Assembly: GCA_903857795.1 (NCBI GenBank)
Contig: CAIOGM010000178.1
Coordinates: 1 to 34,380, forward strand
DNA length: 34,380 nt
From: an uncultured Geobacter sp.
Lineage (GTDB): Bacteria > Desulfobacterota > Desulfuromonadia > Geobacterales > CAIOGM01
Reading direction: 5' to 3'
This document shows, piece after piece, positions 16,693 through 34,038 of this stretch. The position numbers and the translations under genes were made by a program. Every line of letters starts with the position of its first letter. The first letter of the stretch is position 1. The notes under the pieces are model-generated. The model was not told the origin of the DNA. It made no database searches and was given only the letters and a program-made list of their open reading frames with translations.

Positions 16693-16729
16693 ATAAAATA
16701 ACGATACTGTATGAATGAGAGGATTCAAT

Positions 16730-17338
16730 ATGAAAAAGCTTTTCCTGGCGGTATTTCTTGGGCTGGTTTTCACTAGTCCATCATTGGCGAGCACTGTGGC
16801 ATTTACTGCGCCCAATGATGTTACTTCAGGCCTAGAGGCTGGTAATCCTGTTAATCTCGCCCATGTTTTTACTGCTAACTCAAATATTTCAGTCAATGCT
16901 CTTGGTGCTTATTACCTTAAGGCTGACTGGAAAGTTCCCGAAACGGTTGGGCTTTACGATATTTCAGGTAATCTCTTATCTTCGACTATCCTCTCGCCAA
17001 CTGAAAATACTCCGGAAGGATACTTGTTCAATGATATTTCACTTGTAACACTGACCGCAGGACAGAAGTATCTTGTAAATGTTTTTGTTAGTACTAATGC
17101 TTGGTCATCTGGTGCCGTACCTATTCAGGACCCCAACATAACTTATAATTCGCATGTTTATAAGGTTAGTAATATTTTTGAATTTCCGAGTGATACAGAG
17201 GGGGCTAATAGAGATGCATATTATGGTCCTAACTTCACTATTGTCGGAAACAGTGTTGTCCCAGAGCCGTCAACTTTCTTTCTTCTCGGTGCTGGTCTTA
17301 GTGGATTGGCGGTCATAAGAAGAAAATCTAAGAAGTAA
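16730..17338 (+). CDS. PEP-CTERM sorting-domain exported protein 1
   Basis: 202 residues. A signal peptide (KKLFLAVFLGLVFTSPSLAS, cleavage after about ALAS/S) is followed by a beta-rich domain that resembles DUF4082, with VNALGAYYLKADWKVPETVGLYD and LTAGQKYLVNVFV. The C-terminus is a canonical PEP-CTERM tail: VVPEPSTFFLLGAGLSGLAV then the basic IRRKSKK. Such tails are recognised by exosortase/EpsH-type transpeptidases in EPS-producing bacteria; none is in the window. ATG 16730 has GAGAGGA upstream; the earlier ATG at 16715 lacks a site. It is lower in GC than the neighbours. A sigma-54-like promoter precedes it and a terminator follows. Confidence 0.88.
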   Translation: MKKLFLAVFLGLVFTSPSLASTVAFTAPNDVTSGLEAGNPVNLAHVFTANSNISVNALGAYYLKADWKVPETVGLYDISGNLLSSTILSPTENTPEGYLFNDISLVTLTAGQKYLVNVFVSTNAWSSGAVPIQDPNITYNSHVYKVSNIFEFPSDTEGANRDAYYGPNFTIVGNSVVPEPSTFFLLGAGLSGLAVIRRKSKK

Positions 17339-22755: not shown

Positions 22756-22776
22756 AACATTGAACATTGAACCTAG
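22748..22776. repeat. Heptamer repeat GAACCTA/GAACATT at the 3' end of lgt
   Basis: GAACCTA GAACATT GAACATT GAACCTA G: four exact-phase heptamers. The first contains the lgt TAG stop codon. Same family as the 14-bp array at 3504-3578. Confidence 0.8.
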
Positions 22777-23213
22777 TATTTAGTCCCTTTCACCAGACTC
22801 TTTCTCATCTCCAGAACATTCCCGTCCCCCCTTTTCTGGTACTGGACCGTGTCCATGATGGAGCGGATGAGGAAGACTCCCCGCCCCCCCTCGGCGAGCC
22901 CTTCGAAATCCGGGGTGGGGACCTCGTTGATGTCGAACCCCTCTCCTTCGTCAAACACCCGGATCACGAGTTCGTCCTGCTCTATGCCGATGCTGAGATG
23001 CACCATCTTGTCCGGGTCGCGGGCATTGGCGTGGGTGATGGTGTTGATCACCGATTCGGTGAGGACCAGGTTGATGTAATACGCCAGGGTGATACGGTTC
23101 CCCCCGTATTCGTCCAGACCGTTGGCCAGCTCTTCTCCGATCTTCCCGATGAGACTCAGGTACCGGGTCTGATTCGGAATCTTGATGTCGATTTCGATCC
23201 GGTTCTTGTCCAT
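22773..23213 (-). CDS. Anti-sigma-factor kinase, RsbW/SpoIIAB-like
   Basis: 146 residues, a free-standing GHKL ATPase. N-box ESVINTITHANAR, G1 FDEGEGFD and G2 GGRGVFLIRSIMD are intact. There is no histidine phospho-acceptor domain. Family members phosphorylate the serine of an STAS antagonist and bind a sigma factor or other target. It sits 11 nt after the STAS gene and close to a PP2C phosphatase, the complete partner-switching set. No sigma factor is encoded alongside, so the controlled target is unknown. Start ATG 23213. Confidence 0.9.
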   Translation of the reverse strand: MDKNRIEIDIKIPNQTRYLSLIGKIGEELANGLDEYGGNRITLAYYINLVLTESVINTITHANARDPDKMVHLSIGIEQDELVIRVFDEGEGFDINEVPTPDFEGLAEGGRGVFLIRSIMDTVQYQKRGDGNVLEMRKSLVKGTKY

Positions 23214-23224
23214 GGTCTCCTCGA

Positions 23225-23560
23225 TCAGCCCTGTTCCGGAACGTCCGCCGGGGTGGGATAGATGTCGAACACCCGGTGCAGCCGGGTCAGTTCGAACATG
23301 GATTTGACCTGGGGTTGCAGGCTGGCAAGCTTCAGGCTCCCCTGGTTGGTGATGGCGTTCTTGAACCCCGAGACCAGGGCGCCGAGGCCGGAGCTGTCGA
23401 TGAACCGGACATCCTGGAGATCTATGAGGATGTTCTTTTTCCCCTGGTCAAAGAGCGCCAGGAGTTCGGCCTTCAGGTCATTGGCGTTGTGGGCGTCCAG
23501 TCGCTCTTCCTTGAAGGCGATAATTACCAGCTTTTTCTGTTCCGAGATGTCGAGATTCAT
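23225..23560 (-). CDS. STAS-domain anti-sigma-factor antagonist, RsbV/SpoIIAA-like
   Basis: 111 residues, one STAS domain. The phosphorylation loop is VRFIDSSGLGALVSG with S56/S57. The preceding strand ILIDLQD and the terminal helix are typical. Unphosphorylated antagonist binds the anti-sigma kinase; phosphorylation releases it, and a PP2C phosphatase reverses this. The genes for both enzymes flank it (RsbW-like 11 nt downstream, SLC5-PP2C 47 nt upstream). ATG 23560 is preceded by GGAGG. The 16-residue C-terminal extension (YPTPADVPEQG) is non-conserved. Confidence 0.92.
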   Translation of the reverse strand: MNLDISEQKKLVIIAFKEERLDAHNANDLKAELLALFDQGKKNILIDLQDVRFIDSSGLGALVSGFKNAITNQGSLKLASLQPQVKSMFELTRLHRVFDIYPTPADVPEQG

Positions 23561-23607
23561 GCATTCCTCCGTGAGTTGATGAGTGGTTATTTGGCTTTTT
23601 TTAGGTT

Positions 23608-26600
23608 TTAAGCCAATTTCAGGACGACCAGGGTGATATCGTCTTTAGGGAGCGCCTCCTGGAGAAACTCGTCAAGATTCTCGAAGAGGGCTGAGATGAT
23701 GGCGTCAGGGGTGTCATCGCGCATCAGGTTGAGGGTTTTGCAGAGCCGGTCGATGCCGAAGAACTCTTCGGCGGCGTTCTGGGCTTCGATGATGCCGTCG
23801 GTGTAGAGGAGCAGGATATCGCCCGGATCGAGCTGCACCGACTTCTCTTCGAAAAGAACCTGCGGCAGCACCCCGAGGATCAGCCCCTCCGTGTCCAGGT
23901 CGCTGCAGCCCGCCGGCTGCCGCTTCAGGAGGAGCGGCCGGTTGTGGCCGGCGTTGGCGTAACGGAGGAGCCGGCTCTTGAAGGAATAACTCACATAAAA
24001 CATACTGATAAAGAGTTCTGAACGGCTCAGGTCGTCGTAGAGAAGTTCGTTGAGACGCTGCATCAGCTCGCCAGGGTGCACCGTCCGCTGAACGTGGGCG
24101 CGCAGAACGCTGCGGGTCTCGGCCATGATCAGCGCCGCCCCCACATTGTGTCCGGAGACATCGGCGATGACGATGTCCAGGGTGTCATCCCCCCGCAGAA
24201 AGTAGTCGAAGTAATCCCCCCCCACATGGGCGGCGGGGAGGCAGCTACCCGCCACCAGCACCCCCGGCAGGGCCGGCGGCGTGGTGGGGAGGAGGGAGCG
24301 CTGGATCTGCTTGGCTATCTCCATCTCCCGCAGCACCCGGGCGTTCTCCAGGAGCGCCTGCTCCTTGGCCTTCCGTTCCCGTTCCCGGGCCTCCATCTGG
24401 AAGACGATGGTGATGGCCTGGGCCAGCTGTCCCGCCAGGCTGGAGAGGAGCTGGAGGAACTGCTCGGTGAAGAGACCGACGATATCCTGAGAAAAGACCG
24501 AGAGGATGCCGATGGGGGCTTCTCCCTGCCGGGCAATGGGAATATGGGCGAAGGAGCGGACCCCCACCGTCTCCATGAGGTCGCGGCTGACCAGCTTGGT
24601 GGCGTGGTTTACGTCGTTAACGAACTGGATCTTGTTGGAGAGAAAGGCGTCACCGATGTAGGTATTGACCTCGGCTTCCCAGTCGGTCCTGGTGATCTTC
24701 TTGATCTCCGTCCCCCTGAACCCTCTTACCTTGAGCATCCCTCCCGCCGTGGCCAGCCTGACCACCACCAGGTTGAAGCCAAATTCCTTCCGGATGAGGT
24801 CCAGCAGGTCGTCGATGATGATCTGGAGATCCAGGGTGCGGTTCATGATCTCCGAGGCGCGCAGCCTCACATAGAGCGATTCACGGCTCTCCTCCAGGGA
24901 GGCCCGGACCGTCCGGAAGACATCGTAAAACGACTCCATCCGGGAACCGAGATCGGAGAGGTAGCTCTCCACGATGGCCCCGGCCGCCGCCGCCCCCACC
25001 GAGCTGGCCAGGGTCTTTTCGATGAACCGCTTGAGGCTGGGGAGTTCGAATTCCGAGACCCGGCCGTTTTCGTCGATCTCACGGTCTCCCAGATAGGAGG
25101 CGATGGCGCTGCTGGCCTGCTCTTCACCGACGAATTTGGCCATCAGGTTGACGAACTGCATGATGGTGACCGGCTTGGAGAGCCGCTTTTTCTCCCAGGA
25201 CTCCTCTTCCCGGGGTTTGAACACCGACACGAACTTCTCCGCCGGTTCCTTCTCGCGCTCGTCCTTGGGCATCAGGATGGAGAAGGCAAGATACCCGCCG
25301 ATGTTGAAGAGGAGGCTCCAGAAGACGGCGTGGCTGTTCAGATCAAACTCATCAATACCGAAGAGGGCGGTGGGGCGCAGCAGTGAGAAACCGAAGAGCC
25401 CCTTCTCCAGGAGGGTGGTCTGCCAGCGTCCGCTCTGGATGAGCGAAGGGAGGAGCAGGGTGTAGAACCAGAGGGCAAACCCCATGGACATCCCCATGAG
25501 GGCGCCTGCCTTGTTGCCGCGCCGCCAGTAGAGTCCGCCGATGAAAGACGGGGCGAACTGAGCCGCGGCCACAAAGGAGATGATTCCCATGTTGACGAGC
25601 ATGTACTGCTCGGCCACGAGGCTGTGGTAGAAGTAGCCGAGAAAGACCACCAGGAAGATCCCGGCCCGCTTGAGGTTGAGGAGGAGGCCGGGAAACCAGC
25701 CGTTGGGGGCGATCCTGACGAGGATCGGCATCAGGAGGTGGTCCAGGAGCATGGTGCTGATGGCGATGGACTCCACCATCACCATCCCGGCGGCGGCGGA
25801 GAAGCCGCCGATGAAGGCGAGAAGCGCCAACCACTGATGCCCTGACTTCAGGGGGAGTGAGAGGACGAACAGGTCGGCGCCGCTGCTGGAACCGGTGAGG
25901 AGGATGCCGGCAAGAGCGATGGGCATGACAAACAGGTTGATGAGGAACAGGTAGGCGGGGAAGAGCCACATGGCCTCCCTGATGTGCAGTTCGTCGGAGT
26001 TTTCGATCACCATGAGATGAAACTGACGGGGGAGGAGCATGATCGCCCCCATGGAGATCACCAGCATGGAAAAGATGGAAGAGTAGGTGACCTCCCCCGG
26101 GCCGCCGAAGGTGGTCAGATGGTCCAGCAGTTCCGGACGGGTCGCGGCCATCCGGCCGAAGATGTCGGGAAAGCCGTCGAAGAGGAAGAAGGTGACGAAG
26201 ATCCCCACCGCCATGAAGGCGCAGAGTTTGACCAGGGACTCCAGGGCTATGGCGGCGACGAGCCCTTCGTGGCGCCCGGTGGAGGAGATTCGCCGGGCGC
26301 CGAAGATTCCGGCGAAGAGGGCCAGGACTCCGGCGGCCAGTGCACTGCTGCTGACCGGGATCGCCGTCATCCCCGGCAGTGATACGGAGATATGGGGCTG
26401 ACCGCAGAGAATTTCAAAGGAGGTGGAGACCGCCTTCAACTGGAGGGCGATATACGGCATGACGCCGAGGATGGCTATGATGGTGACCAGCCCCCCTAGG
26501 CGCTGGGACTTGCCATACCGGGAGCTGATGAAATCGGCGATGGAGGTGATGTTGTTTTCTTTGCAGATCCGGACCGTCTTGCGCAGAACGAACCACCAGG

Positions 26601-26844
26601 AGAAGGCGGTGAGGGAGGGGCCCAGATAGATAAGGAGAAAGTCGAGGCCGGTGGTGGCCGCCTTGCCGACACTGCCGTAGAAGGTCCAGGAGGTGGCGTA
26701 GACGGCGATGGAGAGGGAGTAGATGTGGGGATTGGCGACGACGCTCCGCTGCTGCGACTGACGCTTGTCGGCCCAGGCGGCGACCCCGAAGAGGGCCAGG
26801 ACATAGAGGAGTGAGACTCCGATGACCAGTTCAGGCTGGAGCAT
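23608..26844 (-). CDS. SLC5 transporter - linker - GAF - PP2C (SpoIIE-type) phosphatase fusion
   Basis: 1078 residues. Residues 1 to about 525 are a sodium/solute symporter-like (SLC5, PutP/CbrA-type) membrane part of about 13 helices, with SLSIAVYATSWTFYGSVGKA at the first conserved helix pair. Residues about 545-650 form a helical linker (NLMAKFVGEEQASSAIASYL; SSVGAAAAGAIVESYL) resembling the STAC region of CbrA-type sensors. A GAF domain follows (about 666-815), then a coiled coil with the MEIAKQIQRSLLP signature. The PP2C/SpoIIE domain (about 860-1078) keeps the metal Asp residues: GGDYFDY, VIADVSGHNVGAAL, LYTDGIIEAQN and KDDITLVVL. Expected role: dephosphorylates the STAS protein encoded next, in response to a transported or bound solute. 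Start ATG 26844 overlaps the stop region of the upstream small gene. Confidence 0.93.
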   Translation of the reverse strand: MLQPELVIGVSLLYVLALFGVAAWADKRQSQQRSVVANPHIYSLSIAVYATSWTFYGSVGKAATTGLDFLLIYLGPSLTAFSWWFVLRKTVRICKENNITSIADFISSRYGKSQRLGGLVTIIAILGVMPYIALQLKAVSTSFEILCGQPHISVSLPGMTAIPVSSSALAAGVLALFAGIFGARRISSTGRHEGLVAAIALESLVKLCAFMAVGIFVTFFLFDGFPDIFGRMAATRPELLDHLTTFGGPGEVTYSSIFSMLVISMGAIMLLPRQFHLMVIENSDELHIREAMWLFPAYLFLINLFVMPIALAGILLTGSSSGADLFVLSLPLKSGHQWLALLAFIGGFSAAAGMVMVESIAISTMLLDHLLMPILVRIAPNGWFPGLLLNLKRAGIFLVVFLGYFYHSLVAEQYMLVNMGIISFVAAAQFAPSFIGGLYWRRGNKAGALMGMSMGFALWFYTLLLPSLIQSGRWQTTLLEKGLFGFSLLRPTALFGIDEFDLNSHAVFWSLLFNIGGYLAFSILMPKDEREKEPAEKFVSVFKPREEESWEKKRLSKPVTIMQFVNLMAKFVGEEQASSAIASYLGDREIDENGRVSEFELPSLKRFIEKTLASSVGAAAAGAIVESYLSDLGSRMESFYDVFRTVRASLEESRESLYVRLRASEIMNRTLDLQIIIDDLLDLIRKEFGFNLVVVRLATAGGMLKVRGFRGTEIKKITRTDWEAEVNTYIGDAFLSNKIQFVNDVNHATKLVSRDLMETVGVRSFAHIPIARQGEAPIGILSVFSQDIVGLFTEQFLQLLSSLAGQLAQAITIVFQMEARERERKAKEQALLENARVLREMEIAKQIQRSLLPTTPPALPGVLVAGSCLPAAHVGGDYFDYFLRGDDTLDIVIADVSGHNVGAALIMAETRSVLRAHVQRTVHPGELMQRLNELLYDDLSRSELFISMFYVSYSFKSRLLRYANAGHNRPLLLKRQPAGCSDLDTEGLILGVLPQVLFEEKSVQLDPGDILLLYTDGIIEAQNAAEEFFGIDRLCKTLNLMRDDTPDAIISALFENLDEFLQEALPKDDITLVVLKLA

Positions 26845-27101
26845 CAGAGCTCTTCTTCCGAAGAGTCGTCACCGTTTGGCGTAACGTTAGCCTTGTTGAA
26901 GAGCCAGATGACGAAAATGGAGACCACCCAGCCGACTTGGAGGTAGAGATAGAGGAGCGGGATCCCCAGGAGCCGGTCCGGCTTGTTGAAGATGCTGATG
27001 AAGGGGTAGTTCATCATGATCGCGCCGAGGATGAAGAAGATGATCCATGATTCCCGGAAGCGCAGGCGGGTCAGGAGGAGCCGTTTAAGTTGTGGCCACA
27101 T
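26844..27101 (-). CDS. Small two-helix membrane protein (DUF3311-like symporter companion)
   Basis: 85 residues. TM1 about 18-36 (ESWIIFFILGAIMMNYPFIS) and TM2 about 47-67 (LLYLYLQVGWVVSIFVIWLF) are joined by NKPDRLLGIP; an acidic tail follows (NGDDSSEEEL). A 'P..n..+.l(l/f)GiP.lY.ylq..W' pattern is typical of small proteins encoded directly before SLC5-type symporters (DUF3311/DUF4212 groups). Its stop touches the start of the SLC5-PP2C gene, so a subunit relationship is inferred. The start is ATG 27101, overlapping the end of the kinase gene by 31 nt. Confidence 0.75.
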   Translation of the reverse strand: MWPQLKRLLLTRLRFRESWIIFFILGAIMMNYPFISIFNKPDRLLGIPLLYLYLQVGWVVSIFVIWLFNKANVTPNGDDSSEEEL

Positions 27102-28663
27102 GGCAGAACTCCCAGTGAGGTCAGTAGCGCGGCGACAGTATGCCTTAAACTCTGCGCCGTGTCGACAGTGATTACCTCTTCCCCGGTGATTTCCGGAGGG
27201 GCATACTCACTTTTCTGCCGGAGAAACTGCTCCTGCCGGGCGTCGGAGATGACGTCACGGCGTCCTTGCCGCTGCTCCAGCCGTTCCAGGATAACCGCCT
27301 CGGGAGCGCTGACCGCCAGAATCACGAACCGGGCGCCATGGAGCTCGGCCAGTTCCCGAAACCGCACCCGTTCCGTGGGATCCCGAAAGGTGGCGTCGAT
27401 GATGACGCTCCTCTTCCAGGAGAGGGCGGCGGACGCCAGCTCCCTGAGACGGTCGTAGCAGCTGCGGGTGAAGCCGGGATGATAGATCCCCTCCAGGTAC
27501 TCTCCCTGGAAACATTGGGTGAGGGGAATCCCCGCCAGCTCTTTGCGTATCCGGTCCGAGGAGTAGAGCTCCAGGCCGAGCTGGAAGGAGAGCTCCTCCG
27601 CCACGGAACTCTTGCCGCTGCCGCTGAGGCCGCAGGTGATGAAGAGGACCAGGGGGAGCCGCTCCCTGAGGATCAGCCCCCGGGCCAGGAGGAGATGCCG
27701 TTGGGCACTCTCATTAGCCGCATTCCTCTCCCCTTGTGAGAGTTCCGGTTCGGCGGCCGCGATGCTCTCGACCTCTCCGCGGATGAAGGCCCGATAGATC
27801 TGGTAGAAGGGGAGGAGCCGCCGAAGCTCCTCGTCTCCGGTGACCGTGCAGTACTCCTCGACGAAGCGTGACGCCAGCCGACCGCAACGGTAATACTCCA
27901 GATCCATGAGGAGGAAGGCGATATCCGCCGCCGTGTCCAGGCAGCGGAACCGCTGGTTGAACTCGATACAGTCGAAGATTACCGGCGGGTCGGTGAGACA
28001 GATGTTCCCGCTGTGCAGGTCGCCATCCCCCTCGCGGATGAATCCTCCCTTCACCCGCCGGTTGAAGAGTTCCTCGTGTTGCTCCAGGAACTCCTCCACC
28101 CACCGGCGGATGAACAGGTAATCCGGCAGGGTTATGCTCTTTCCGATGAACCGCGCCACGATGGCGAAGTTCTCCTCCCAGTTGGCGCGCAGCGCCCCGG
28201 GAGCGCCGTAGAGGGAGATCTCCGGGCCGGTGGCCGCATTCCGGTGGAAGGCGGCGATGATCCTGGCGAGGCGCCGGATCTGTTTGGTTGTAACCGCTCC
28301 CTGCTTCAGGAGCCGGTTCATCATCCGTGCTTCCGGGAGCCGGACCATCTTCACAGCGTAGTCGACGACCTCCCCTTCGGCACAAAAAGAGACTCCCCGG
28401 GGGGTCGTCCGGAGCGGAACCACCTCCAGATAGATCTCACGGGCCAGGCGGCGGTTGAGTCGCAGCTCCTCGGTGCAGAAAAAGAGGCGGCGCTCCAGGG
28501 TGGTAAAGTCCAGGAATCCCAGATTTACCGGTTTCTTGACCTTGTAGACGAACCGGTCGGTGACGAACAGATATGAGACGTGGGTCTGGAGCAGCTGCAC
28601 GGCCGCCGTCGGATCAGGGTAGGCTGCGGGGTCGAGCAGGGAGTCGAGCCGGCTTCTATCCAT
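27071..28663 (-). CDS. Aminoglycoside-phosphotransferase-like kinase fused to P-loop (gluconate-kinase-like) domain
   Basis: 530 residues, soluble. Domain 1 (about 1-320) is a protein-kinase-like APH fold: VYKVKKPVNLGFLDF (ATP-binding Lys), catalytic loop GDGDLHSGNICL near 212, metal motif VIFDCIEFNQRFRCLD. Domain 2 (about 340-530) is a small P-loop kinase: GLSGSGKSS near 345, then YSSDRIRKELAG and IIDATFRDPTER. This COG2187 + COG0645 fusion recurs in proteobacteria but has no established substrate. ATG 28663 with GAGGTGA seven bases upstream is chosen; the open frame up to 28762 has no comparable site. First gene of the operon leading into the SLC5-PP2C module. Confidence 0.88.
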   Translation of the reverse strand: MDRSRLDSLLDPAAYPDPTAAVQLLQTHVSYLFVTDRFVYKVKKPVNLGFLDFTTLERRLFFCTEELRLNRRLAREIYLEVVPLRTTPRGVSFCAEGEVVDYAVKMVRLPEARMMNRLLKQGAVTTKQIRRLARIIAAFHRNAATGPEISLYGAPGALRANWEENFAIVARFIGKSITLPDYLFIRRWVEEFLEQHEELFNRRVKGGFIREGDGDLHSGNICLTDPPVIFDCIEFNQRFRCLDTAADIAFLLMDLEYYRCGRLASRFVEEYCTVTGDEELRRLLPFYQIYRAFIRGEVESIAAAEPELSQGERNAANESAQRHLLLARGLILRERLPLVLFITCGLSGSGKSSVAEELSFQLGLELYSSDRIRKELAGIPLTQCFQGEYLEGIYHPGFTRSCYDRLRELASAALSWKRSVIIDATFRDPTERVRFRELAELHGARFVILAVSAPEAVILERLEQRQGRRDVISDARQEQFLRQKSEYAPPEITGEEVITVDTAQSLRHTVAALLTSLGVLPCGHNLNGSS

Positions 28664-28844
28664 AAACTTCACCTCACATCTTTGTTTGACCCGTTCCGCT
28701 CTTTTGTGATACCGTGCCAAGAATAAACAGCAGGCTGGCGGGTCATTAAAGAGCCCGGCCAAGCCCAGAGAGCCAGACGCTGACAGGGGCGCCGCCTATT
28801 CCCCCTCCCTGTCAATCGGCTGGTATTTTTTTAACGGATTTCCC

Positions 28845-30572
28845 ATGAATAGGCAACTGGTTCTTCGGCCGTTCCTCATCTTCTCATTCATCCTCACCCT
28901 CTCGTCATGTGCAACCATGACGCCGACCCCCTCGTCCCCTACCGGGTCGGAGGAGGTCGCCTCTCCCCGTGAGATGAAGAGCCGGGCTCTCTATCAGTAT
29001 TCGCGAGCCCGCCTCCGGCTCCTGGATGGTGATTCCGAGGGCGCCCTCTCATTGATTAATGTGGCCATGGACGAAGACCCCGAGGGGGCCTATCTCTACT
29101 TTGCCGCAGCGGGCATTTACCTGAAGAGCAATCGGGTGCAGGAGTCCATGAGCGCTGCCGAAAAGGCGGTGACCCTCGATCCGGAGAGCCGTCAGGCCCA
29201 GCTGCTCCTGGCCAATCTCTGCTCCATGGTCAAGCGTAACGACGATGCCGTTCCCCATTATCTCAAGGCAATCGAGCTCGACCCGGCCCGGGAAGACGCC
29301 TATCTGCACCTCTCCGTCGCCTATGTCAGGCTTCAGGAGTACGACAAGGCGGTGGCCATCCTCAAGAAGTATCTGGAACGTGATCCCGCTTCGACGCTGG
29401 TCAACTACTACCTGGGCAAGGCCTATGAACAGATGAAGCTCTCCAAGGAGGCCATCGTCTACTTCAAACGGGCTCTTGAGTCGCGGCCGGACTTCGAGCA
29501 GGCGATGATCGATCTGGGGATATCGGAAGAGTCCCAGGGGCTCACCGATGACGCCATCGCCACCTATCGGGCGCTCCTGGAGCACAACCCGGATAACAGC
29601 GCCGTGCAGCAGCACCTCATCCAACTCCTCATCCAGCAGCAGCGGTACGAGGAGGCGTTGACGCTACTCAAGGAGCAGGTTGCCGCAGGCCATGCCAACG
29701 GAGACGTTCAGCGCAAGATCGGCCTCCTCTACCTGGAGTTGGAACGATACGACGAGGCCGTTGCGCTCTTCACGTCACTGCTGGAGAGGGAGCCGGACTC
29801 CTGGCAGCTCCGCTTCTATCTGGCGACGGCCTATGAGGGGAAAGAGCAGGGGGACAAGGCACTTGAGGAATTTTTGAAGATCCCCCCCACGGCCCCGCTC
29901 TATCTGGAGGCCTTGAGTCATGTCGCCTATCTCTATAAGGAGAAAGGCGATTCTGCCGCCGGTCTGGCCCTGCTCACCAGGGCCGTCGAGGCGAAGACGG
30001 GAGGGGTCGAACCGTATCTGCTCCTTTCCCGGTATCAGGAGGCGCTCGGTCAGCCCCAGAAGGGGTTGGAGACGCTGCTTCAGGTGGTTGAGGAGTTTCC
30101 CAAGGAGCCCCGTCTCTTCTTCGCCATCGGCGTTCTCTACGACAAGGTCGGCAAGCGGGAAGAGTCCATCGCCATGATGAAGAAGGTCATCGCCATGGCC
30201 CCCGACGATGCCCAGGCGCTGAACTATCTCGGCTACACCTACGCCGAGATGGGGACCCATCTCAACGAGGCGCTGGGGTATATCAACCGGGCGTTGGACG
30301 CAACCCCGGGGGACGGGTTCATCCTGGACAGCCTGGGGTGGGTCTATTACAAGATGAAGAAGTATGACCTGGCCATCGTCAACCTGGAGCGGGCCCTCAC
30401 CGTAATCTCTGACGACCCGGCGATCCTGGAGCATCTGGCCGAGGCGTACTACGCCAACCGGGAGTACGATAACGCCATCGCCAGCTACAGAAAACTCATC
30501 AAGCTGGAGCCGGAGAAGAAGGAGTACGCGGACCGGCTGAGGAAGATCAGGGCCGAGAGCTCCGATCGATGA
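28845..30572 (+). CDS. TPR-repeat lipoprotein
   Basis: 575 residues. A lipoprotein signal with hydrophobic core PFLIFSFILTLS and lipobox LSSC places the modified cysteine at residue 22. Next comes a Pro/Ser/Thr-rich linker, and then about 13-14 tandem tetratricopeptide repeats fill residues 45-570 (for example AYLHLSVAYVRLQEYDKAVA, LNYLGYTYAEMGTHLNEALG, ILDSLGWVYYKMKKYDLAIV). TPR scaffolds of this size bind proteins; the partner is unknown. The ATG overlaps the next gene's ATGA (30569-30572), indicating translational coupling to the peptide-binding protein. No promoter is evident; divergent from the APH-like kinase gene. Confidence 0.9.
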   Translation: MNRQLVLRPFLIFSFILTLSSCATMTPTPSSPTGSEEVASPREMKSRALYQYSRARLRLLDGDSEGALSLINVAMDEDPEGAYLYFAAAGIYLKSNRVQESMSAAEKAVTLDPESRQAQLLLANLCSMVKRNDDAVPHYLKAIELDPAREDAYLHLSVAYVRLQEYDKAVAILKKYLERDPASTLVNYYLGKAYEQMKLSKEAIVYFKRALESRPDFEQAMIDLGISEESQGLTDDAIATYRALLEHNPDNSAVQQHLIQLLIQQQRYEEALTLLKEQVAAGHANGDVQRKIGLLYLELERYDEAVALFTSLLEREPDSWQLRFYLATAYEGKEQGDKALEEFLKIPPTAPLYLEALSHVAYLYKEKGDSAAGLALLTRAVEAKTGGVEPYLLLSRYQEALGQPQKGLETLLQVVEEFPKEPRLFFAIGVLYDKVGKREESIAMMKKVIAMAPDDAQALNYLGYTYAEMGTHLNEALGYINRALDATPGDGFILDSLGWVYYKMKKYDLAIVNLERALTVISDDPAILEHLAEAYYANREYDNAIASYRKLIKLEPEKKEYADRLRKIRAESSDR

Positions 30573-32191
30573 CGCTGGGGCGGGCGTTCTCCCTGTTTCT
30601 GCTCCTCTCTCTGGCCGGTTGTGGCGCCGTTGACGAAACCGGCACGGTCCCTCTGCGCAAGGGCGGGGTTCCCGCCTCCGGAGACACCCTGGTCACCGGC
30701 TCCATCGGCGAGGCCTCCACCCTCATCCCACTCCTGGCGTCCGACGCCGCCTCCCACACCATCGCCGGTTACATCTACAACGGGCTGGTGAAGTACGACA
30801 AGGAGCTGAACCTGGTGGGGGACCTGGCCGAGAAGTGGGAGGTCTCTCCCGATGGCCTGGTCATCACCTTCCACCTCCGCAAGGGGGTGAAGTGGCAGGA
30901 CGGCCACGACTTTACCAGCCGCGACGTCCTCTACACCTACCGGGTCACCATCGACCCCAAGACCCCCACCGCCTACGCCGAAGACTTCAAACAGGTGAAA
31001 AAAGTCGAGGCCCCGGATCTCTTTACCGTCCGGGTCACCTACGATCATCCCTTTGCCCCGGCCCTGGCCTCCTGGGGATCAAACGTCCTGCCGGCCCATC
31101 TCCTGGAGGGGAAGGAGATCACCACCAGCCCCCTGGCGCGCCGCCCGGTGGGGACCGGCCCGTACCGGTTCAAGGAGTGGGTGGGGGGGCAGAAGGTTAC
31201 CCTGGAGGCCTATGACGGCTACTTCGAGGGGAAGCCGTACCTGGCCCGGGTGGTGGACCGGCTCATCCCCGACAGCGCCACCATGTACCTGGAGCTGAAG
31301 GCGGGGGGGATCGACATGATGACCCTGACCCCGGTGCAGTATCAGCGCCAGACCACCGGCAAAAAATTCCTCTCCCAGTTCAACAAATACCGCTATCCCG
31401 CCTCCTCCTATGTCTACATGGGGTACAACCTGCGCAATCCCCTCTTCGGCGATGTCCGGGTCCGGCAGGCTCTGACCCATGCCATCAACAAGGAGGAGCT
31501 TATCCAGGGGGTGCTTTTGGGGATGGGGCAGGTGGCCAAGGGGCCGTACAAGCCGGGGAGTTGGGCCTGGAATCCCTCGATCAGTGACCCGGCCTATGAT
31601 CCGGCGGCGGCGCGCAGGCTTCTGGCCGAGGCGGGGTGGCGCGACACGGACGGCGACGGCCTCCTGGACAAGGGGGGGAAACCGTTCAGTTTCACGGTGC
31701 TGACCAATCAGGGGAACGCCGAACGGCTCAAGACGGCCCAGATCATCCAGCAGCGGCTCCGGGACGTGGGGATCGACATGAAAATCCGGGTCATCGAATG
31801 GGCCTCCTTCATCACTCACTTCATCGACACCCGCAACTTCGAGGCGGTGCTCCTGGGGTGGAGTCTGGGGCAGGACCCGGACATCTTCGATGTCTGGCAC
31901 TCCAGCAAGAGCGGCAAGAAGGAGCTGAACTTCATCGGCTACAAGAACGAAGAGGTGGACCGGCTCATCGTTGCGGGGCGGGGGACCTTCGACCAGAAAG
32001 AGCGGCAGCGCTGTTACTGGCGGATTCAGGAGCTCCTGGCAAAGGATCAGCCCTACACCTTCCTCTATGTCCCCGACGCCCTCCCGGTGGTGAGCGCCCG
32101 AATCCGGGGGATCGCCCCGGCTCCGGCGGGGATTGGTTACAACTTCATCCAGTGGTACGTCCCCAGGGGCGAACAGAAGTATACCCAATGA
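30569..32191 (+). CDS. Peptide/nickel-type ABC transporter substrate-binding lipoprotein
   Basis: 540 residues. Lipobox LAGC with C18 as lipidation site. The family 5 extracellular solute-binding fold (DppA/OppA/NikA) is shown by [20 protein letters not shown] at the N-terminal strand, [80 protein letters not shown] and [16 protein letters not shown]. These proteins capture oligopeptides, dipeptides, metals or sugars; which one is not visible. Start by ATGA overlap with the TPR gene, stop by ATGA overlap with the permease. Being a lipoprotein rather than free periplasmic is common in this lineage. Confidence 0.92.
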
Positions 32192-33168
32192 TCCCGTATC
32201 TCATCAAACGGATTCTCCTCCTCTTCCCGCTCCTGTTGGGGATCACCTTGATCACCTTCACGGTGATCCATCTGGCCCCTGGCGAGCCGGTGGAGATGCA
32301 GACCGCCATGAGCCCCAAGATCACCGCCGAGACCCGCCAGCGGCTCCGGGAGTACTACGGGTTGGACAAGCCGCTCCCGCTCCAGTACGGTCTCTGGCTG
32401 GGACGGATCGCCAGGCTGGATTTCGGCCGCTCCTTTGCCCCGGACAACCGGCCGGTGATCGACAAGATCCGCGAGCGGATTCCGGTGACCCTCTCCCTCA
32501 ACCTCATCGCCCTGGTTCTGGAGTTCGGCCTGGCGCTCCCCATCGGCATCCTGGCGGCGGTGAGGCGCAACACCCTGCTGGACAAGGGGCTCACTCTCTT
32601 CGTCTTCCTCGGCTTCGCCATCCCCACCTTCTGGCTGGCGCTTCTCCTCATGTACCTCTTCGGGGTGAGACTGGAGTGGCTCCCCATCTCCGGGCTCCAC
32701 TCCCTGGGGAGCGACCGTCTCGCCCCCTGGCCCTGGCTCCTGGACATGGCCAGGCATCTGATTCTCCCCATTGCCGTGGCCTCCTTCGGCAGCCTGGCCG
32801 GGCTCTCCCGCTATATGCGCTCCACCATGCTGGAGGTGATCGGTCAGGATTACATCACCACGGCGCGGGCCAAGGGGTTGCCGGAACGGGTGGTGATCCT
32901 CAGGCATGCGCTGAGAAACGCCCTCCTCCCGGTGATCACCCTCCTGGGGTTTTCCCTCCCCGGGCTCATCGGCGGCAGCGTCATCTTCGAGACGATCTTC
33001 GCCATCCCCGGAATGGGACAGCTCTTCTTCATGGGGGTCATGGCCCGGGACTATCCCCTGGTCATGGGGATTCTCGTCATCGGCGCCGGCTTGACCCTCA
33101 TCGGCAACCTGCTGGCCGATCTCTGCTACGCCCTGGCCGACCCGCGCATCCGCCACGGCGGACAATAA
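32188..33168 (+). CDS. Peptide-type ABC transporter permease (DppB/OppB family)
   Basis: 326 residues. N-terminal [20 protein letters not shown] and [16 protein letters not shown] are the hallmark of DppB permeases, followed by about six TM helices. The EAA-type coupling loop is [40 protein letters not shown] follows, and [11 protein letters not shown] is near the end. The start is ATG 32188 (ATGA overlap with the binding protein); the frame is open back to 31636 but that stretch is an out-of-frame shadow of the binding protein gene. The DppC-type gene is 18 nt downstream. Confidence 0.95.
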
Positions 33169-33186
33169 TAATTCCTGGATTCAATC

Positions 33187-34038
33187 ATGTTCCGTAACAG
33201 CTACTTCATCACCGTCGTCTGGAGACGTTTTCGCCGTAACCGGCTGGCCCTGGCCGGGGCCGGGGTGGTGGGGCTCCTCTTTCTCCTCTCGTTCCTGGCG
33301 CCGTTCATCACCCCCTGTGATCCGGCCCACTTGGACGCCTGGCATGTGCTCCTGCCGCCATCGACCCAGCACTGGTTCGGCACCGACGAACTGGGGCGGG
33401 ATGTCTTCACCCGGGTCATCTACGGATCGCGAGTCTCCCTCAAGGTCGGGTTCGTAGCGGTGGGGATCGCGGTGCTCATCGGCACCGCCGTGGGGCTGGT
33501 GTCCGGGTTCTACGGCGGCTGGTTTGACTCTCTCCTCATGCGGCTGGTGGATATCATGCTCTGCTTCCCCACCTTCTTCCTGATCCTGGCGGTCATCGCC
33601 ATGCTGGAGCCGTCCATCTGGTACATCATGATCATCATCGGTCTCACCGGCTGGATGGGGGTGGCGCGGCTGGTCAGGGCCGAGGTCCTCACCCTCCGGG
33701 AGCGGGAGTTCGTTCAGGCGGCCCGCTGTCTCGGCGCCTCGGACCTGAGGATCATCGTCCGGCACATCCTCCCCAACGCCCTCTCGCCGGTGCTCGTAAC
33801 CGCCACCCTGGGGGTGGCCGGCGCCATCCTCACCGAATCGGCCCTCTCGTTCCTCGGCATCGGGGTGCAGCCCCCCACCCCCAGTTGGGGGAACATCCTC
33901 ACCGCCGGCAAAGAGTACATCGAGTTCGCCTGGTGGCTCTCCCTCTTCCCCGGTCTCGCCATCCTCGTCACCGTCCTCGCCTATAACCTATTGGGTGAAG
34001 GGCTCCGCGACGCCCTCGACCCGCGATTGAACCGCTGA
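33187..34038 (+). CDS. Peptide-type ABC transporter permease (DppC/OppC family)
   Basis: 283 residues. The conserved N-terminus of DppC is seen in RNRLALAGAGVVGLLFLLSF and LAPFITPCDP, then HWFGTDELGRDVFTRVIYGS. The coupling loop is REREFVQAARCLGASDLRII and VRHILPN; the end motif is ALSFLGIGVQPPTPSWGNIL. About six TM helices. It pairs with the DppB-type permease to form the membrane channel. No ATPase (DppD/DppF) gene follows in the remaining 340 bp, so the ATPases are encoded elsewhere or beyond the window. Confidence 0.95.
   Translation: MFRNSYFITVVWRRFRRNRLALAGAGVVGLLFLLSFLAPFITPCDPAHLDAWHVLLPPSTQHWFGTDELGRDVFTRVIYGSRVSLKVGFVAVGIAVLIGTAVGLVSGFYGGWFDSLLMRLVDIMLCFPTFFLILAVIAMLEPSIWYIMIIIGLTGWMGVARLVRAEVLTLREREFVQAARCLGASDLRIIVRHILPNALSPVLVTATLGVAGAILTESALSFLGIGVQPPTPSWGNILTAGKEYIEFAWWLSLFPGLAILVTVLAYNLLGEGLRDALDPRLNR

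Follow-up and report, generated by a model that had tools for sequence, protein, structure and literature searches.

Known sensors in which a transporter domain of the SLC5 family is followed by a STAC domain, such as CbrA, CrbS and RpuS, feed two-component histidine kinases. In CbrA, K196 fills the Na2 site of the transporter, and coupling is to protons rather than sodium. A two-helix peptide, CbrX, is bound to the CbrA SLC5 domain (PMC13022988). In the partner switches of the RsbU, RsbP, SiaA and SpoIIE systems, the gene for a PP2C phosphatase is followed by rsbV and rsbW. Described here is an operon that combines these two known kinds of system, an SLC5-STAC transceptor and an RsbU-type partner switch, so that the same sensory front end feeds a phosphatase-based output. 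It lies on the minus strand of a 34,380 nt stretch of DNA from an uncultured Geobacter sp. (GenBank assembly GCA_903857795.1, contig CAIOGM010000178.1, positions 1 to 34,380), hereafter the window. We consider it probable that the operon is a transceptor-controlled partner switch and that it originated when a PP2C domain, in a single event, took the place of a histidine kinase. The combination of SSS, GAF and PP2C_SIG domains has been mentioned for Actinobacteria, among proteins that also hold HATPase_c (review PMC7918813); judged by the description in that review only, these proteins share the domain combination of the Geobacter fusion, and no functional study and no STAC, operon or evolutionary analysis of them was found. 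The literature searched, with subscription journals (and thus the original STAC paper) outside it, likewise yielded no account of the operon or of its retention across the class, nor of the exchange of kinase for PP2C or the module losses reported below. The genome paper of G. metallireducens lists sigma factors, and its mention of anti-anti-sigma factors is confined to one frameshifted gene.

The operon consists of five tightly packed genes: an APH-like/AAA_33 P-loop kinase fusion (27071-28663 from an ATG start, or 27071-28762 from a TTG start), an 85 aa membrane protein with two transmembrane helices (26844-27101), the 1078 aa SLC5-STAC-GAF-PP2C fusion (23608-26844), an RsbV-like STAS anti-sigma-factor antagonist (23225-23560) and an RsbW-like HATPase_c_2 serine kinase, or anti-target protein (22773-23213). 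The two-helix gene shares 31 nt with the kinase gene on one side and 1 nt with the fusion gene on the other; 47 nt separate the fusion from rsbV, and 11 nt separate rsbV from rsbW. Pfam and NCBIfam models detected SSF, GAF_2 and SpoIIE/PP2C domains in the fusion, STAS in the rsbV product, HATPase_c_2 in the rsbW product, and AAA_33 with a weak APH match in the kinase; the two-helix protein gave only a sub-threshold match to DUF3311. An earlier sequence-only reading of this DNA had described the same five packed minus-strand genes, a fusion of SLC5, GAF and PP2C with intact metal aspartates, and an antagonist and anti-sigma kinase directly behind it, all of which is borne out by the open reading frames, their overlaps and short gaps, the domain matches and the invariance of the aspartates. 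It was also correct that the operon contains no sigma factor gene. Sigma-70 promoter-like sites within the operon are no more numerous than expected by chance.

The sensor half of the fusion is clearly related to CbrA. The CbrA SLC5-STAC chain (PDB 10ED) is matched by residues 8-629 (phmmer E=6.5e-69), and the SSF match in the N-terminal part lies above the Pfam cut-off. An AlphaFold2 model of the fusion, with 50 relatives in the alignment, has a mean pLDDT (predicted local distance difference test) of 82 and a pTM (predicted template modelling score) of 0.59, so that the relative placement of its domains is unreliable. In structure comparisons, residues 1-546 of this model match the SLC5 transporters CHT1, SGLT, NIS and SMCT1 (VIA Z 26-30); the SLC5/SSS domain itself is assigned to residues 1-525 (25270-26844). 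What the sequence-only reading had called a CbrA-like linker is indeed of the CbrA type, and can now be specified as a STAC domain at about residues 555-640 (24925-25182), on the basis of the 10ED alignment and of four model helices at residues 561-572, 574-585, 600-616 and 618-631. It is followed by a GAF domain at residues 671-811 (24412-24834), the same domain as that of PDB 2QYB, a crystallised GAF domain of a Geobacter sulfurreducens protein; residues 658-836 align with 2QYB in sequence, and residues 670-814 match it in the structure comparison with 60% identity. A helical linker at residues 812-850 (24295-24411) leads to the phosphatase. Within the transporter, K206, the equivalent of CbrA K196 in the Na2 site, is present in 57 of 57 PP2C-type sequences and in 19 of the 20 relatives with a histidine kinase output (HK-type). 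The pocket residues Y49, T51, W53, T54, Y73 and F424 are, like K206, invariant or nearly so, which argues that binding or transport has been retained by the SLC5 domain. Four CbrA pocket residues (Y51, W55, Y75 and F406) are conserved in the fusion; S53 and A56 are replaced by threonine, F248 by serine (S264) and H257 by arginine (R273). These residues suggest a pocket that binds carboxylates with altered specificity and is coupled to protons.

The output half is that of a partner switch. The SpoIIE/RsbU-type PP2C domain (residues 858-1078; 23611-24273) matches PF07228 with E=4.5e-52, and its metal-binding aspartates D877, D895, D1016, D1068 and D1069 are invariant in 57 sequences. Structure comparison of residues 830-1078 recovered the phosphatases SiaA (VIA Z 27.2), Rv1364c (VIA Z 26.7), RssB and SpoIIE. 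Pfam detected neither HisKA nor HATPase in the fusion, the C-terminus of which is PP2C. In RsbV the D55-S56-S57-G58 (DSSG) motif, containing the candidate phosphoserine S56, is invariant in 49 of 49 sequences, as are the N-box residues E53 and N57 and the G boxes of RsbW; relatives of the two proteins include 6m36, 1th8 and 1sbo. The locus thus shares with the RsbU, RsbP, SiaA and SpoIIE systems the PP2C fold and metal residues, the RsbV phosphoserine site, the RsbW kinase motifs and the gene order, and differs from them in having a full transporter domain with STAC as its input and in the absence of a sigma factor from the operon. With CbrA, CrbS and RpuS it shares a homologous front, the Na2-site lysine, the pocket aromatics and a small two-helix gene overlapping upstream, whereas GAF stands in place of PAS, PP2C in place of the DHp-CA kinase, RsbV and RsbW in place of the response regulator, and S264 and R273 in place of pocket residues F248 and H257. 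Genetic linkage suggests that the PP2C domain acts on the adjacent RsbV.

Conservation of this arrangement was surveyed in 277 genomes from 82 genera of the class Desulfuromonadia. Matches to the fusion at E<=1e-60 were found in 250 of them, a number that includes PP2C-only and otherwise partial matches, so that the count for the full fusion is somewhat lower; RsbW orthologues were identified in 253 genomes and 79 genera. The switch is conserved across nearly the whole of this class of sediment and soil bacteria, metal-reducing relatives of Geobacter included. At 52 operonic loci from about 22 families that were read individually, rsbV and rsbW follow the fusion, with one exception at which the contig runs out; another locus has a stop that interrupts the fusion, with rsbV and rsbW still behind it. 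A lack of such conservation had been named beforehand as a possible refutation of the sequence-only reading; the two genes are kept beside the fusion in essentially all of the operonic loci. Because the same order recurs at loci where protein identity is as low as about 45%, it is not attributable to chance.

Outside the class, the same front end, at about 45% identity, is followed by a histidine kinase. Elsewhere in the phylum, the best matches are 38-47% identical to the fusion and extend from residue 1 no further than about 815-840; other matches cover less. All eight of the HK-type proteins scanned outside the class end in HisKA-HATPase, several of them with receiver domains, and receiver or kinase genes, read from sequence, adjoin some of the HK-type genes. 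In a tree of the SLC5-STAC region rooted with CbrA, a distant and long-branched outgroup, all PP2C-type sequences, including the stand-alone copies discussed below, form one clade (SH-like approximate likelihood ratio test, SH-aLRT, 99) that is nested within the kinase type. Identity between the two types falls to about 10% at residues 841-860, just past the GAF domain. Because there is one nested PP2C clade and because similarity ends in the linker between GAF and output, the economical reading is a single replacement of the kinase by PP2C within the linker. The kinship with SLC5 kinases seen earlier stands, and is refined in that the PP2C form appears as a one-time derivative of the histidine-kinase form. 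Coiled-coil linkers have been proposed to make sensors interchangeable among PPM phosphatases, histidine kinases and diguanylate cyclases (PMC12143880). The SLC5-STAC-GAF family provides a clear example from nature that fits this proposal, and its HK-type and PP2C-type homologues, with a breakpoint in the GAF-output linker, offer a natural test of it in the rewiring of one sensor.

Natural losses reveal the modules of the system. Genomes of genus g19 carry, at the same chromosomal site, a stand-alone PP2C protein of 254-276 aa followed by rsbV and rsbW, and both the SLC5-STAC-GAF part and the two-helix gene have been lost; since the phosphatase is retained there directly before rsbV-rsbW, PP2C, RsbV and RsbW form a unit. 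Family f21 has lost the fusion together with the two-helix gene and has retained rsbV-rsbW, and several f4 genomes and a few others have neither the fusion nor RsbW. By these losses the system falls into three modules, the first made up of SLC5-STAC-GAF and the two-helix protein, the second of PP2C and the third of RsbV-RsbW. The two-helix gene is found upstream of all 52 operonic PP2C-type genes and of 14 of 20 HK-type genes, and near none of 12 loci lacking SLC5. It resembles CbrX in position, gene overlap and topology, with no detectable likeness in sequence, and its product is a likely candidate for a CbrX-like accessory subunit of the SLC5 domain. The APH/AAA_33 kinase gene does not follow the module losses: it is absent from some intact switches and is retained beside rsbVW in most of the g19 and f21 loci without SLC5. 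For this reason it is probably a persistent neighbour with a separate function, and a working part in the switch was judged unlikely.

The domain composition, the conserved active sites, the conserved operon, the single exchange and the module losses together carry the interpretation of the locus as a transceptor-controlled partner switch, and the earlier proposal that a CbrA-type SLC5 front end is coupled to PP2C, RsbV and RsbW is supported by them. In the mechanism we propose, the SLC5 domain would shift conformation when it binds or moves a small solute with a carboxylate group; this domain is probably coupled to protons, and the two-helix protein probably packs against it. The change would be relayed by the STAC bundle and by the GAF domain in the cytoplasm, through the helical linker, probably a dimeric coiled coil, to the PP2C domain, which would be gated by the transporter domain, by GAF or by both. 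The active phosphatase would dephosphorylate RsbV at S56, and unphosphorylated RsbV would bind RsbW and release its target; with the phosphatase inactive, RsbW would rephosphorylate RsbV and hold the target. PP2C would have taken the place of the histidine kinase in an SLC5-STAC-GAF kinase once, near the base of the class. The phosphatase readout makes the conversion of transporter conformation into signalling testable.

Several observations weigh against this interpretation. According to a review (PMC7918813), the kinase part of CbrA signals even when the SSS domain is absent, so that SLC5 need not be the main input and GAF may be. CbrX is dispensable in P. putida (PMC13022988), and a search of the PDB with a profile of the two-helix protein (E<=10) found no CbrX chain. 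RsbW could bind a target other than a sigma factor. There are also eight solitary additional copies of the fusion, with no two-helix gene and no rsbV or rsbW nearby, and some of these may act in trans or on something else. Two of them (L112 and L113), second copies in other genomes of the order, adjoin genes identified by eye as CoA-transferase-like, sigma-54 activator-like, recG-like and PutA-like, a possible hint at acetate or proline as ligand. The CbrA result, together with the persistence of PP2C-RsbV-RsbW after loss of SLC5 and the two-helix gene, would also fit an SLC5 domain that is a vestigial or constitutive membrane anchor, with the real input a cytoplasmic signal at GAF and PP2C still acting on RsbV. 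The near-invariance of the pocket residues and K206 argues instead for binding or transport, and GAF was lost along with SLC5 in g19 and hence was not kept there as an independent input; we regard the anchor role as quite improbable.

As possible targets of RsbW, the genome holds five sigma-70 family factors, their identities assigned from length and sequence, and no factor of the sigma-B/F type was seen among them. RpoS, searched with the genome's own protein at E<=1e-80, is present in 234 of the 277 genomes, and the model TIGR02394 was uninformative for co-occurrence since it also matches RpoD. In the set restricted to completeness of at least 90% and contamination of at most 5%, where the two presence lists were crossed by hand, 161 genomes have both RsbW and RpoS, nine RsbW only, 13 RpoS only and four neither. 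One genome in a single contig (G182) has an intact switch operon (L037) and no RpoS at that threshold, and FliA was not found in several genomes with intact switches, among them G161 (a single contig), G160, G189 and G002. Because some genomes with the switch lack RpoS and some lack FliA, neither RpoS nor FliA is an obligatory class-wide target, and RpoD, RpoH or a non-sigma protein are left as candidates. The dispensability of RpoS and FliA, with no sigma-B/F type factor in evidence, leaves a near-universal or non-sigma partner. That this partner is RpoD, or else lies outside the sigma factors, for instance a diguanylate cyclase or a histidine kinase, is plausible, though short of probable, and RpoD has a proposed precedent in sigma66 of Chlamydia, where an RsbU has been proposed to respond to alpha-ketoglutarate (PMC8256260), although no neighbouring gene points to either kind of partner. 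A switch acting on RpoS, as a general stress or starvation control like Shewanella CrsR-CrsA or Pseudomonas HsbR-HsbA, is unlikely: partner-switch control of RpoS is established in gamma-proteobacteria (PMC6482189), RpoS is widespread in the class, and RsbW and RpoS show a weak co-absence (Fisher p=0.02, uncorrected for relatedness), yet nine of the near-complete genomes, G182 among them, have RsbW without RpoS and thirteen have RpoS without RsbW. Control of motility through FliA/FlgM, for which the flagellar output of the Pseudomonas HptB-PA3346-PA3347 switch (PMC8256260) is a precedent, is very improbable and is rejected as a class-wide role, being largely refuted by the intact switches in genomes without FliA. 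The fullest version of our proposal, in which a transport cycle directly gates a serine phosphatase, the class-wide switch acts on a housekeeping sigma factor or a non-sigma enzyme, and a single exchange of histidine kinase for PP2C occurred behind an unchanged SLC5-STAC-GAF front and small membrane subunit, is somewhat doubtful when taken as a whole.

Other phosphatases and partner switches were encountered in the survey. Proteins of Receiver-PAS-PAS-PP2C architecture (L020-L024 and L028), with PP2C domains 45-53% identical to that of the fusion and no rsbVW nearby, may feed the same RsbV. The genome of the window carries a second partner-switch operon (L110, G000:C17, 5534-8308) encoding dCache-HAMP-PP2C, STAS and HATPase proteins, and a stressosome-like cluster (L109, G000:C174, 2623-9885) of STAS, RsbT-like HATPase and RsbX/PP2C-like genes, which adjoins a Kup-like potassium transporter and kinases. 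In two Methylococcaceae genomes (L025 and L027, 7586-12361), the cluster around an RsbW 48-49% identical to that of the window encodes an AmoC/PmoC-family subunit (Pfam E=1e-110 in L025), a PAS-PP2C phosphatase and a kinase that was judged RsbT-like by eye. In L238 (G241:C87, 4956-8482), likely an exopolysaccharide cluster, genes for a divergent PP2C, an RsbV and an RsbW are interspersed among sugar-nucleotide genes. Within the window, a divergent plus-strand group (28845-34038) encodes a TPR protein, a family-5 solute-binding protein and an OppC-type permease of an oligopeptide ABC (ATP-binding cassette) system. Across the class, the genes for the TPR protein and the solute-binding protein stay next to the switch, and a functional link is possible. 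Further away on the same strand, 16715-17338 encodes a PEP-CTERM motif protein with a weak match to DUF4082.

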